In this document: one piece after another, positions 58,145 to 63,334 of the stretch
How positions within the stretch are numbered: the first letter of the stretch is position 1
Layout of the letters: each line of letters begins with the position of its first letter
From: Denitratisoma sp.
GTDB taxonomy: Bacteria; Pseudomonadota; Gammaproteobacteria; Burkholderiales; Rhodocyclaceae
Assembly (NCBI GenBank): GCA_032027165.1
Contig: JAVSMO010000001.1
Coordinates: forward strand, 736,948 to 800,947
DNA: 64,000 nucleotides
Direction: 5' to 3'
The notes under the pieces: generated by a model
Told to the model about the DNA's origin: nothing
The model's database searches: none
The model's input: the letters and a program-made list of their open reading frames with translations, nothing else
Program-made: the position numbers and the translations under genes

Positions 58145-60379
58145 CTACGCCGCTTCCGTTTCCTGTGCGTCGACGCGGAGGACGGTGCGATTGCGGCCGC
58201 CGTGCTTGGCTGAATAAAGGGCCAGGTCGGCCCTCAGCAGCAAGGCATCGATCCCCGTGTCGAAGCGCTGGTATTCCGTAACGCCAATGCTGACGGTGAG
58301 CGATATCCTGTGCTCGCCGTTGACGATATGGAGCGCCGCGATCTGCTCGCGAATTCGCTCGGCCACGATGACGGCGCGCGCGCCGTCGGTCTCGGGCAAC
58401 AACACTCCGAATTCCTCGCCGCCCAGCCGTCCCACTAGGTCCTCGCCGCGGAGCAGTTGCGTGAGGACGCCGACGACCTTCTGAATCGCCTTGTCGCCAG
58501 CGGCATGCCCGTGGCTGTCGTTGATCGACTTGAAGTGGTCGATGTCCAGCATCATCACCGATAGCGGCCGCTGGTAGCGGTGGCTGCGTTCTATCTCGAG
58601 TTCCGCGCTGTCGAGGAAATGGCCGCGCGTGGCGACGCCGGTCAGCGCATCGGTTGTCGCCAGGCGGCGCAACTCGTCCTCAAGGCGCTTGCGCTGGGTG
58701 ATGTCGACACCCATGCCGATCACGTGGGGACTGCCATCCATCTCGATGCATTCTCCCTTGATGTGGAAGGGGATGCGCCGGCCGTCCCTGGCGACGATGA
58801 TCGCCTCGCATTCGGCGTGGCCCTGTGTGAAGGCTTCCTGCAGCTTGTGTCGCAGCGCAATCCGGCTGTTCGTGTCGAAGAGGCTGAACAGACTCAGGCT
58901 GGCCAGTTCCTCGCCGTCGTAGCCGGTGACGGTTTCCAGGTTGGTGTTCCAGAGTACATCCTGCCCTTCCTCGTCGACCAGGAAAAAAATGCCCGGCAGG
59001 GAATTGATCACCCGCCGCGTGAAGTCGCGTTCCCGCCGTATGCCGTGTTCGGCCGCTTCGCGCCGGTGGATTTCCTCGACCAGGGCGCTGTTCCTTCCGT
59101 CGAGTTCCCGTGTCCGCTCGATGACCCGCTCTTCGAGCTTCTGCTTCGATTGCTCCAGCGCCGCGAAACTCTCGCGCAGCCTTGCCGTCATGGCGTTGAA
59201 GGATTCCCCCAGCGAAGCAAGTTCGCGCGGCTGGGTGATTTCGATCGACTCGTCCAACCGGCCTGAGGCGATCGCCTCGGCGGCCTGCGACAGGCGGCTG
59301 ACCGGCACGTCGATCCAGTGCGCAATGAGGATGGCGAGACCCAGTGCGGGCAACGTCAGCGCCAGCAGCAGAAACATGGTGGTGCTGTTGCCATCCTTCA
59401 CGTGCCCGATCAGGCCGGATTCCGGGATGGCGACAACGACAAGCCATTCGATTCCCTCGTCGAAGCGGTAGGGGCGCGCCTCGACGTAATGCACATCCTT
59501 CTCGTCTTCGACGCGCATCTCCTGCCGCTCGAACGATGCCGGGGGGAAGGCCGTGGCTGTCCTGATGCGGCCGGCGATTTTGCGGACGACGGCGTCGCGG
59601 CTTTCGACTGCCGGGAGGCGGTCGAACAAGCTCTCGTCTCGAATCAGTGGCTCATCCAGGGACGAGGCGATCAGCAGGCCCTTGCGGTCGATGATGAATG
59701 CCCGCGCGCCTCTGGCGAGCGACAACTCCCGAAGGAGGCGGCTTGTCTTCTCCAGGTTCATGGTAGCGACATAGACGGCAGAGAATTCGCCGTGGGCATC
59801 GAATGCCGGGTGCGCCGCGGCGATCTGCAGCGTTTTCTCGCCCGAGTAATAGAAGGGATCGGTCCAAACCGTGCCTGGCGCGTTTTCCGCGCGCCTGTAC
59901 CAGATCTGCTGGCGCGGATCGTAGTCCGGTACGCTGACGCTATAGCCGTGCGGCTCGCCATGGCGGGTTGCGGCGTAGGTGTTGAGGCCATAGCCCGTGG
60001 ATAGGTCCGAGTGGCTGAGCATGACCTTGTCGTCCGGACGGCGCTCAACCGCCACGAAAACGCGCTCCGTCGTGCCGACGGCAATCTGGGTAGGCGTTTG
60101 GAAAGCCAGCAACTGATTGAACAGGCGCCTTTGCAAGCCTTTCAAATCCGATAGATCCCAGCCTTGCCGGGCGTTCAGTTCGACAACCCTCCGCACACCC
60201 GCCAGATGGGTGTTCAGATCGGCCGTGACATTGCCAATGACCTCGTGGCGGTATTTGTCGGCCAGGTCGTTTGCCGCCCGCTCGGTGTTGCTGAACGACA
60301 GCCAGCCTACCAGGCTGCCGGCGGCCAGCATCGGTAAGCTGAGGGCCAGGATCAATAGGGATCGGAAACGCGGCTTCAC
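58145..60379 (-). CDS. Cache-HAMP-PAS-GGDEF diguanylate cyclase
   Basis: A 744-residue sensor. An N-terminal transmembrane helix (about 7-29) is followed by a large periplasmic Cache domain (about 35-330), a second helix (about 337-360), HAMP (about 360-412), a coiled coil, PAS (about 450-570, VINSLPGIFFLVDEEGQDVLWNTNLETVTGYDGEEL) and GGDEF (about 580-740) with the active motif RLGGEEF. It should make c-di-GMP in response to an external ligand. It is divergent from the DUF1631 gene, whose leader carries a c-di-GMP riboswitch. Confidence 0.94.
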   Translation of the reverse strand: MKPRFRSLLILALSLPMLAAGSLVGWLSFSNTERAANDLADKYRHEVIGNVTADLNTHLAGVRRVVELNARQGWDLSDLKGLQRRLFNQLLAFQTPTQIAVGTTERVFVAVERRPDDKVMLSHSDLSTGYGLNTYAATRHGEPHGYSVSVPDYDPRQQIWYRRAENAPGTVWTDPFYYSGEKTLQIAAAHPAFDAHGEFSAVYVATMNLEKTSRLLRELSLARGARAFIIDRKGLLIASSLDEPLIRDESLFDRLPAVESRDAVVRKIAGRIRTATAFPPASFERQEMRVEDEKDVHYVEARPYRFDEGIEWLVVVAIPESGLIGHVKDGNSTTMFLLLALTLPALGLAILIAHWIDVPVSRLSQAAEAIASGRLDESIEITQPRELASLGESFNAMTARLRESFAALEQSKQKLEERVIERTRELDGRNSALVEEIHRREAAEHGIRRERDFTRRVINSLPGIFFLVDEEGQDVLWNTNLETVTGYDGEELASLSLFSLFDTNSRIALRHKLQEAFTQGHAECEAIIVARDGRRIPFHIKGECIEMDGSPHVIGMGVDITQRKRLEDELRRLATTDALTGVATRGHFLDSAELEIERSHRYQRPLSVMMLDIDHFKSINDSHGHAAGDKAIQKVVGVLTQLLRGEDLVGRLGGEEFGVLLPETDGARAVIVAERIREQIAALHIVNGEHRISLTVSIGVTEYQRFDTGIDALLLRADLALYSAKHGGRNRTVLRVDAQETEAA

Positions 60380-60720
60380 TCGAGGGGGTGCAATATCGAT
60401 GGATTCATCCCTGTGATCTACGGATGTTGCGACGCAAACTTGAACTGGCCCGTGCGGCCCGCGGGATTCAGTTCGTCGGCAGCGGGAGACTCGATAAAAT
60501 TTTCTGCGCCATCTTTTCGGGTGATCGTGAAAAAAACACGTGAAATCATTAAGGTGAGGCTGCCAGAAGCGATACTGTCGGGCATTTGAGACAGTTGCGC
60601 ATTGAATTATCGCGTGCTATTGATTACGCAAAGCCGTGAAGTATTTCACGGCGGCTCCAGAGGTCTTTCGGCTCAAAGGCCTCAAGGAAACGATCCAGAT
60701 GTCGCCAAGGCAAATGGATC
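60380..60720. other. Gene-free upstream part of the DGC-DUF1631 intergenic region
   Basis: No credible coding region was found here. It should hold the divergent promoters. A CGTG-A7-CACG inverted repeat (about 60526-60540) and an 18-20 base palindrome (60633-60652) are visible. I could not assign -10/-35 pairs with confidence on either strand. Confidence 0.5.
60633..60652. promoter_or_regulatory. Palindrome upstream of the c-di-GMP riboswitch
   Basis: GCCGTGAA-GTAT-TTCACGGC is a perfect 8-bp inverted repeat with a 4-base centre. It lies about 75 bases before the riboswitch, close to where a promoter is expected. It may be an operator for an unknown dimeric regulator. Confidence 0.4.
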
Positions 60721-60725
60721 ATCGA

Positions 60726-60825
60726 ATCTGATAAGGGCAAACCCATCGAAAGCTGGGGGCGCAAAACAACCGGTCTAAGGGACTTCCCGATGCAGGGAAG
60801 TTCTATGGCAGCGGAGTTGCCGGAT
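60726..60825 (+). ncRNA. c-di-GMP-I (GEMM) riboswitch
   Basis: The conserved GEMM-I elements occur in order: GGGCAAACC (60735-60743), a short hairpin with a GAAA loop (60748-60751), GGGGGCGCAAAAC, CCGGTCTAA, a 10-bp variable stem (GGGACTTCCC with GGGAAGTTCT), then ATGGCAGCGGAGTTGCC. ATCTG (60726-60730) and CGGAT (60821-60825) close the outer P1 stem. This layout matches the Vc2-type aptamer. It lies 205 bases before the DUF1631 ATG, on the same strand, so it should control that gene. No obvious terminator follows, so control may act on translation or through a less clear stem downstream. Confidence 0.88.
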
Positions 60826-61030
60826 AGGGGTCACAATGAGTCGTGCCTTTCTTTCTGTCAAAGCATCGCCGGGCGAACCTGTCCGGACTGCACCTCCGCG
60901 CCAGCCCCGCCTGACCTGTTCCCGCGCTTCCATCCCGGTGACGTTCGCCTGACGGCCGCTGCCATTTCGGCATCGGTCTGAATGCCCGTCGTCGCGCGGT
61001 TGCGCGGCACGGCTGTGAATGGAGGCTGGC

Positions 61031-63334
61031 ATGGCTGCGAGTGCATTGAGCAATGTCGTCAATCTGAATGAGCGGCGTCAGCTGAGCGCGGCCGAATCAA
61101 GCCGCATGCTCAATGATTGCCGGGAACTGGCCATGAAGCGGCTGTCCGTATCCCTGCGCGAGATGCTGGCCGATGTCGAGGAAGACCTGTTCCAGATGGC
61201 AGAAGCCAGTTACGACCGCGAGATGCAGAAGCTCTATCTCGAGGTGCGCGGCAAGGCCAAGGAAAAGTGGCCGAAGATGGAAGCCGCCTTTTCGCGCCAT
61301 TTCGTCGAAGTCTTCAATCACAAGATGCGCGGCGGGATGGACACCGCCGTCAAGGCGCTTTCCGTTTCGACCCAGGAGTTGCGCCTGGTCGAGGAGGACG
61401 ACCTCGCCGAAAGCATTGCCATGCAGGAACTGGCGACCCGCCTGCGCGAGCAGAACGAGGATGAACTGTCCCTGCTCGGCGAGCGCGTCGCCATGCTGCT
61501 TGGACGGAATGAGCTGAAGGACGAGGAAAACCCCATCAGCCCGCAGGCGGTTTGTGACGCGCTGAAGCGTGCCTGTGACGAGATCGAAGGCAGCGTGAAG
61601 GTCAAGCTGGTGCTGCTCAGGCAGATCGAGCAGCACGTCTCCAGGGCGCTGCATGCCGTCTATGCCGACCTCAACAGCGAGATGGTGCGCTGGAACGTCC
61701 TGCCTGACCTGCGCTCCGCTTACCGCAAGCCGGTGAACGCGCCATCGGCTCCCCGGCCTGCAGCCAGGCAGGAATCGCCCGCTGCGCCCCCCCAGGGAGA
61801 GACGGCCGTCGGAGGCGACCTGCTGAGCGCCCTGAACCATCTCGTGCTCGTGCAAGCCGCCGGGCTGTCGCCTGGTGCGGCTGCACCGGCACCTGCCAGC
61901 GGAGGTCCGGCGGGTGGGACGGGCTTGCAGGCGGCGAGCATCAAGAGCGCGTTCATCGATTCCCTGACCGACATGCAGCGTCTGGACAGGCTTCTAAACG
62001 AGAAGGGGAACACGGACGGCCTGCCCGACCTTGGCCAGGCGCTCGGCACGATGAATGCCCTGCACCGCATCAAGGCGAACAGCCAGGCCCAGGGCGTCGG
62101 CCAGCTCGACGCCATCACCATCGACATCGTCGCCATGCTGTTCGATTTCATCTTCGACGACGCCAAGATCCCCGACGTGATCAAGGCGCTGGTGGGGCGG
62201 CTGCAGATTCCCGTGCTGAAGGTGGCACTCCTCGACAAGTCCTTTTTCTCAAGCAAGGCTCATCCTGCGCGCAGGTTGCTCGACGGCATTTCACGGGCGG
62301 CAGTGGCCTGGGGCGATACGGTCGACCAGGATGATCCGCTCTACCAGGAAATCGCCTTCATTGCCGAGCGCATCCAGGGCGATTTCGAGCGAGATGTGCA
62401 GGTCTTCACCGACGCCCTCAATTTGCTCAATGCCGTCATTTCAGAACGCGATGCGGCGGCGGAGGGAATCGCGGGGCGATCGGCGGAGCTGATGCGCAAG
62501 CGCGAAACCGAGGAAATTGCTTGGGTCGTCGCCGGTGAGGCGGTGTCCCGGCGCCTGTCGTCCGGCGTTCCGCAGGGCGTGCAACGCTTCCTGCTCGATC
62601 ACTGGCAGCATGTGCTGAAGGAACTCTACATCCGCCACGGCGAGGATCACCATGCCTATCTGAGTGCGACCTCCATGATTGACGATCTCATCTGGAGCGT
62701 CGCACCAAAGACCAATAGCGACGAGCGCAAGCAGCTGGTGAACACCTTGCCCGGCCTGCTTCGCGCCCTGCATGCCGGGCTTGACGCGATCAACCTGCAG
62801 CAGGAGAAGCGGAGCCGGTTTTTCGACGAGCTGGTGGCGATGCACTCCGCGGCGGTCAAGGCGGGGCTGAATGGCGGGGAGCTTACTGCGGTCGCGACCG
62901 GGGCGCCAGCGCCGGCCGAGGTAGCGTCTTCGGCATCTCCGGCCGACCAGTACAGCGTCAATCCGGAGGGCGAACTGTTCATTACGCGCATCACCGAGAA
63001 CGACGTTCAGATCGAGGAAGTAGCCCTGGTCGGCGCCAATCCGTCGGCTGTCGTTGCGGCTGATCTGTATATGCAGCAGGTGGCGGCGCTCGGGCGCGGC
63101 GACTGGGTGGAATTCAGACGGCACGAGGGAGAGGCGGTGCGGGCTCGCCTCTCCTGGATCAGTCCGCAGCGCGGAATCTACCTCTTCACCAACCCACGTT
63201 CGCCGCGGGCGACGTCGATATCGCAGGGGGCACTGGCCTACCAGTTCAGGACTGGCATGGCCCGCATCGTGACAGAAGAGCCGCTCTTCGAACGCGCCGT
63301 GAATGGCGTGCTCAACAGCCTGCAACTCGTCTGA
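61031..63334 (+). CDS. DUF1631 family protein
   Basis: A 767-residue cytosolic protein. GGAGG lies 5 bases before the ATG at 61031, which is preferred over the ATG at 61019. Most of the length (about 15-640) is helical DUF1631 sequence, with a low-complexity Pro/Ala linker at about 235-300. The last 110 residues (LGRGDWVEFRRHEGEAVRARLSWISPQRGIYLFTN) look like a small beta-barrel, possibly PilZ-like; this is a guess. The family function is unknown. Control by a c-di-GMP riboswitch points to motility, attachment or biofilm. Confidence 0.9.
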   Translation: MAASALSNVVNLNERRQLSAAESSRMLNDCRELAMKRLSVSLREMLADVEEDLFQMAEASYDREMQKLYLEVRGKAKEKWPKMEAAFSRHFVEVFNHKMRGGMDTAVKALSVSTQELRLVEEDDLAESIAMQELATRLREQNEDELSLLGERVAMLLGRNELKDEENPISPQAVCDALKRACDEIEGSVKVKLVLLRQIEQHVSRALHAVYADLNSEMVRWNVLPDLRSAYRKPVNAPSAPRPAARQESPAAPPQGETAVGGDLLSALNHLVLVQAAGLSPGAAAPAPASGGPAGGTGLQAASIKSAFIDSLTDMQRLDRLLNEKGNTDGLPDLGQALGTMNALHRIKANSQAQGVGQLDAITIDIVAMLFDFIFDDAKIPDVIKALVGRLQIPVLKVALLDKSFFSSKAHPARRLLDGISRAAVAWGDTVDQDDPLYQEIAFIAERIQGDFERDVQVFTDALNLLNAVISERDAAAEGIAGRSAELMRKRETEEIAWVVAGEAVSRRLSSGVPQGVQRFLLDHWQHVLKELYIRHGEDHHAYLSATSMIDDLIWSVAPKTNSDERKQLVNTLPGLLRALHAGLDAINLQQEKRSRFFDELVAMHSAAVKAGLNGGELTAVATGAPAPAEVASSASPADQYSVNPEGELFITRITENDVQIEEVALVGANPSAVVAADLYMQQVAALGRGDWVEFRRHEGEAVRARLSWISPQRGIYLFTNPRSPRATSISQGALAYQFRTGMARIVTEEPLFERAVNGVLNSLQLV

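Follow-up and report, generated by a model that had tools for sequence, protein, structure and literature searches.

The aptamer, its target gene and the region upstream

The window, by which we mean the whole 64-kb stretch of DNA that was analysed, contains a c-di-GMP-I (GEMM-I) riboswitch aptamer, followed on the same strand by a gene of the DUF1631 family and preceded by a structured 5' leader. The features of the locus are:

60595-60623 (+): possible promoter TTGCGC-N17-TATTGA with TGC before the -10, placed by eye from conservation
60633-60652 (+): palindrome GCCGTGAA-GTAT-TTCACGGC, a 5' hairpin or operator, conserved in the genus
60660-60683 (+): 5'-leader hairpin B, ahead of the aptamer, from covariation
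60692-60720 (+): 5'-leader hairpin C, immediately before the aptamer, from covariation
60726-60824 (+): c-di-GMP-I (GEMM-I) riboswitch aptamer, RF01051, full-length model
60726-60730 with 60821-60825 (+): P1 of the aptamer, ATCTG with CGGAT, 5 bp with one G-U, read from the sequence
60742-60757 (+): P2 hairpin of the aptamer, GAAA tetraloop at 60748-60751, one T-C mismatch, from sequence and covariance-model (CM) match
60826-60830 (+): Shine-Dalgarno-like AGGGG directly after P1, from sequence, conserved in the genus
60836-60952 (+): candidate leader ORF of 38 codons, starting 12 bases behind the aptamer
60869-60886 (+): leader hairpin CCGG...CCGG, consensus fold of 11 genus leaders, compensatory changes at three pairs
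61021-61025 (+): Shine-Dalgarno GGAGG of DUF1631, from sequence, conserved in the genus
61031-63334 (+): DUF1631 gene (PF07793), 767 aa, the presumed regulated gene

A cmscan search of the whole window against Rfam matched 60726-60824 (+) to RF01051 over the complete model (positions 1-87 of 87) with 71.2 bits and an E-value of 5.8e-12, well above the gathering cut-off of 35 bits, and returned no other match at gathering threshold. The genome, a single contig of 3,405,959 bases, holds only this one GEMM-I site. The preliminary description had recognised the GEMM-I landmarks and a closing P1 in this leader, and both the Infernal match and our reading of the sequence agree with it: besides P1 and the GAAA-capped P2, the aptamer carries GCGCAAAA, CCGGTCTAAG and ATGGCAGCGGAGTTGCC, and the CM alignment places the tetraloop receptor CUAAG/UAUGG (P3) and the GCAAA core. 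P1 has 3-4 pairs in 31 of 36 relatives, and an alignment of 36 loci contains 31 invariant aptamer columns, while the flanks of the same loci have diverged. Judged by these elements, all shared with RF01051, the window aptamer is an ordinary, canonical member of c-di-GMP-I. It differs in its target, DUF1631 being undescribed as a GEMM target in the open-access papers that our searches returned, and in its leader, in which we found no intrinsic terminator that could serve as the expression platform.

The gene behind the aptamer was correctly named as DUF1631: its product matches PF07793 over residues 21-764 with 557.8 bits (cut-off 33.7; E 5.9e-167), and it is the only DUF1631 gene of the genome. 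The gap to its ATG, given earlier as about 205 bases, measures 206. We prefer the ATG at 61031 to the in-frame ATG at 61019 because the latter overlaps the GGAGG Shine-Dalgarno. Against the NCBIfam family PacR (NF058594) the protein scores 189 bits, far under the model cut-off of 1200, and is thus a relative rather than a member; an explanation of the name PacR was not found in the open-access literature. An AlphaFold2 model built with 60 relatives is mostly helical with a C-terminal beta-rich domain (mean pLDDT 82, pTM 0.57), and this domain folded poorly alone (mean pLDDT 51). By sequence, no solved relatives were found. For residues about 660-750, Foldseek and VIA-align gave middling matches to small beta-barrels (Tudor/Spindlin, a TraI domain), and outside that region they gave helical bundles, nowhere a clear match, and since all were only middling we draw no function from them. 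PilZ was absent among the families listed for the protein at E-values up to 1 and among the fold-search chains listed, though absence from the latter does not argue against a PilZ domain. DUF1631 is uncharacterised, and few open-access papers mention it, those consulted doing so in passing. At four loci (L079, L080, L081, L082) a single GEMM leader is followed by two successive DUF1631-matching ORFs, of which the first is the shorter.

Upstream of the aptamer, the 5' leader element at 60633-60720 shows compensatory change in 8 of its 21 pairs, above all 500 shuffles. Its covariance model was found in the genus only at the DUF1631 locus, once per genome, besides weak matches. This covariation suggests a conserved structure and is good but not final evidence of one, because related sequences can beat shuffles without structure. 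The possible promoter at 60595-60623 was not reported by a consensus scan. A divergent dCache-HAMP-PAS-GGDEF diguanylate cyclase (58145-60379, - strand) adjoins the riboswitch; in several sister species its place is taken by other ORFs, for which reason it was rejected as a functional partner and left out of the system. Its neighbourhood looks like a lineage-specific arrangement.

Recurrence of the GEMM-DUF1631 pair

Is the adjacency of GEMM and DUF1631 a peculiarity of this genome? In a sample of 200 genomes of the family, 101 carried GEMM-I and 101 carried DUF1631, and among the matches listed there were at least 28 pairs with GEMM on the same strand and at most 1 kb upstream. The order sample of 300 genomes, searched for GEMM with our own model R1, had GEMM in 113 and DUF1631 in 126; the matches listed contain at least 40 pairs over 12 GTDB families, on the same strand and with GEMM upstream in all. 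Half of the 80 nearest DUF1631 loci of named genomes (40/80) have GEMM directly upstream, and elsewhere in these loci (745 kb) only two weak GEMM matches occurred. Rfam's own model found GEMM in 14 loci of a 15-locus subset of those DUF1631 loci. By chance, one GEMM-I and one DUF1631 would lie adjacent in about 1.5e-4 of genomes, whereas the pair is seen in dozens. The adjacency is no local accident.

The question raised at the outset, whether other DUF1631 genes have GEMM leaders, can thus be answered with yes, and widely, and the placement of a canonical GEMM-I aptamer to control DUF1631 gains support from both position and conserved pairing. The computation establishes that the aptamer is canonical, that its place ahead of DUF1631 is unique and that the pairing is conserved through the order. 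GEMM is missing ahead of another DUF1631 subfamily within the same family (e.g. L039, L042), and the gammaproteobacterial DUF1631 loci among the 80 are without it. A link of GEMM to DUF1631 or PacR was not found in the open-access literature; subscription journals and supplementary tables lay outside this search, so a prior listing is possible.

Two further observations concern the surroundings of GEMM-I sites. In some other genera, as at L073 and L092, a gene for an HDOD-domain protein (PF08668) lies directly upstream of the GEMM-DUF1631 pair and may be a functional neighbour. Other GEMM-I sites of the family (L002-L031) precede other genes, several with secretion-signal-like N-termini, and are without the +12 leader ORF arrangement described below (both by eye).

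The leader ORF as a candidate expression platform

How could the aptamer reach a start codon so far downstream? When the leaders of the genus are aligned, nearly all members share a Shine-Dalgarno-like AGGGG and, 11-12 bases after the aptamer, a start codon; in other Rhodocyclaceae the leader start lies at +10 to +17. New here is that this family usually has a short leader ORF, opened by a predicted ribosome-binding site and start codon that follow the aptamer by 10-17 bases. Most genus members have an ORF of 48-49 codons, whose stop is a homologous TGA located 46-52 bases ahead of DUF1631. In the window, a 1-base deletion has cost this ORF 10 codons relative to most sister species, and it ends 78 bases before the ATG at 61031; the near twin L112 likewise has a 38-codon leader ORF ending 78 bases before DUF1631.

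Outside the genus the leader ORF comes closer to its target. At eight loci the stop of a 36-47-codon ORF and the start of DUF1631 overlap as ATGA, four more overlap DUF1631 by 28-31 bases, and others overlap or end within 10 bases; the leader stop thus overlaps or abuts the DUF1631 start in relatives such as L128 (Propionivibrio soli), L130, L161 and L183, but not in the window. Summed over 17 loci outside the genus, the leader frame contains 2 stops and the two alternative frames 25 and 17. In 14 of these loci the distance from leader start to DUF1631 ATG equals 2 mod 3. Because per-locus shuffles with the frame fixed returned values of 0.02-0.73 for ending near the DUF1631 start, the weight rests on the repeated agreement of frame, and no single locus is convincing. 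The eight leaders of the ATGA class are diverged (12-40% identity, except for one pair at 70%), and the overlap that they have in common points to translational coupling in these relatives. At one locus, L120 (3899-4001), there is no intervening leader ORF, and the start codon found 14 bases after the aptamer is that of DUF1631 itself. This would be a natural direct version of the switch, and it fits the idea that this place is a regulated ribosome entry site.

A held-out check of 20 loci from other families found a comparable leader ORF absent in nearly all, so that it characterises the family rather than GEMM-DUF1631 pairs in general. A codon-position signature is missing from the genus ORF, frame 0 does not outscore the other frames, and coding selection was rejected as an idea because third-position changes are not in excess. 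Since the window copy is shortened and the genus lacks a coding signature, we infer the role of the leader ORF in the window from the relatives. The ORF behind the aptamer is, in our reading, a candidate expression platform, with good support in the relatives only and less in the window. When the aptamer was forced or forbidden in folding calculations, the leader ribosome-binding site did not become consistently more or less exposed, and the direction of the switch is therefore a guess.

Proposed mechanism, alternatives and meaning

With some reservation, we favour a mechanism in which a riboswitch in the DUF1631 mRNA leader sets ribosome entry at the leader ORF; DUF1631 would be an output of c-di-GMP signalling. 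c-di-GMP would bind the aptamer and stabilise P1, whose 3' strand (60821-60825) ends where the Shine-Dalgarno (60826-60830) and the start codon (60836) begin. The switch would set ribosome entry at the 60836 site, where the short leader ORF opens. In relatives with the ATGA overlap, translation of this ORF may hand ribosomes on to DUF1631 by termination-reinitiation; in the window, with its 78-base gap, it could work by distant reinitiation or by protecting the leader from Rho. Our weak preference is for an OFF switch, since 30S binding should be impeded by a stable P1 right next to the Shine-Dalgarno. For the Rhodocyclaceae as a whole, we put forward more tentatively, at somewhat short of even confidence, that a c-di-GMP-I riboswitch gates a leader ORF whose peptide is free to drift while its translation is needed for DUF1631. 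The genome encodes 23 GGDEF domains over cut-off and two PilZ domains, and given these GGDEF domains c-di-GMP is probably made. A tie of DUF1631 to attachment, motility or biofilm formation would follow solely from the ligand of the predicted riboswitch.

A related arrangement is known from ppe2 of M. tuberculosis, where a B12 riboswitch is followed by an AUGA-coupled uORF whose translation is needed, through termination-reinitiation, for PPE2 expression (PMC11260477). Both systems have a riboswitch followed by a short leader ORF, and in the relatives of the window this ORF likewise overlaps the target start as AUGA. They differ in ligand class, and coupling in the DUF1631 system is predicted from sequence; the window leader ORF, moreover, stops short of its target.

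A less probable but serious competitor also assigns control of DUF1631 to the riboswitch and takes the genus leader ORF as incidental, with Rho-dependent termination or refolding of the 200-base leader affecting the DUF1631 ribosome-binding site directly. The conserved leader hairpins with compensatory changes and the missing codon signature of the genus ORF speak for it, as do the other families, where 80-150 bases separate the aptamer from DUF1631 and no leader ORF is present. Against it stand the ribosome-binding site and start at +12, which almost all genus members retain and which recur at matching spacing in other genera, and a frame that stays open in relatives whose leader sequences are unrelated. 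An anti-Shine-Dalgarno GCCAGCC (60901-60907), which in the window is complementary to GGCTGGC at the DUF1631 start, was rejected because the genus does not conserve it.

Readings that take the aptamer out of c-di-GMP control of DUF1631 are much less credible. It is highly improbable that the aptamer is a free-standing RNA not controlling DUF1631, or that the pairing reflects shared ancestry of a non-functional leader; such a leader would decay, whereas the aptamer keeps its invariant columns between diverged flanks and stands beside DUF1631 in 12 families. The GEMM-I class includes cGAMP-sensing variants (PMC7266159), and the ligand-selectivity position is G20 of Vc2 (PMC9262584). The existence of such variants is what a reading of the aptamer as a sensor of 3',3'-cGAMP (GEMM-Ib) instead of c-di-GMP has in its favour, and we consider it the most improbable of all. 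In the AGGGCAAACC stretch of the window aptamer, onto which we presume G20 of Vc2 to map, both candidate selectivity positions are G, and the second, the G before CAAA, is invariant over the 36 loci.

In summary, the locus appears to hold a real c-di-GMP-I riboswitch with a conserved, uncharacterised target, for which the relay through a leader ORF is a plausible mode of action. The recurrence of the pair in 12 families ties DUF1631 to the c-di-GMP response and, as the same pairing recurs across a bacterial order, makes this protein a testable part of c-di-GMP signalling. In the genome of the window, where DUF1631 is the only GEMM-I target beside 23 GGDEF domains, there is a direct way to test the protein. 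The leader-ORF architecture offers a clean system for asking how a riboswitch at a start codon signals to a gene 100-200 bases further on. If true, the leader relay of the Rhodocyclaceae would be a riboswitch-uORF relay driven by c-di-GMP, with an output protein found order-wide as its target.
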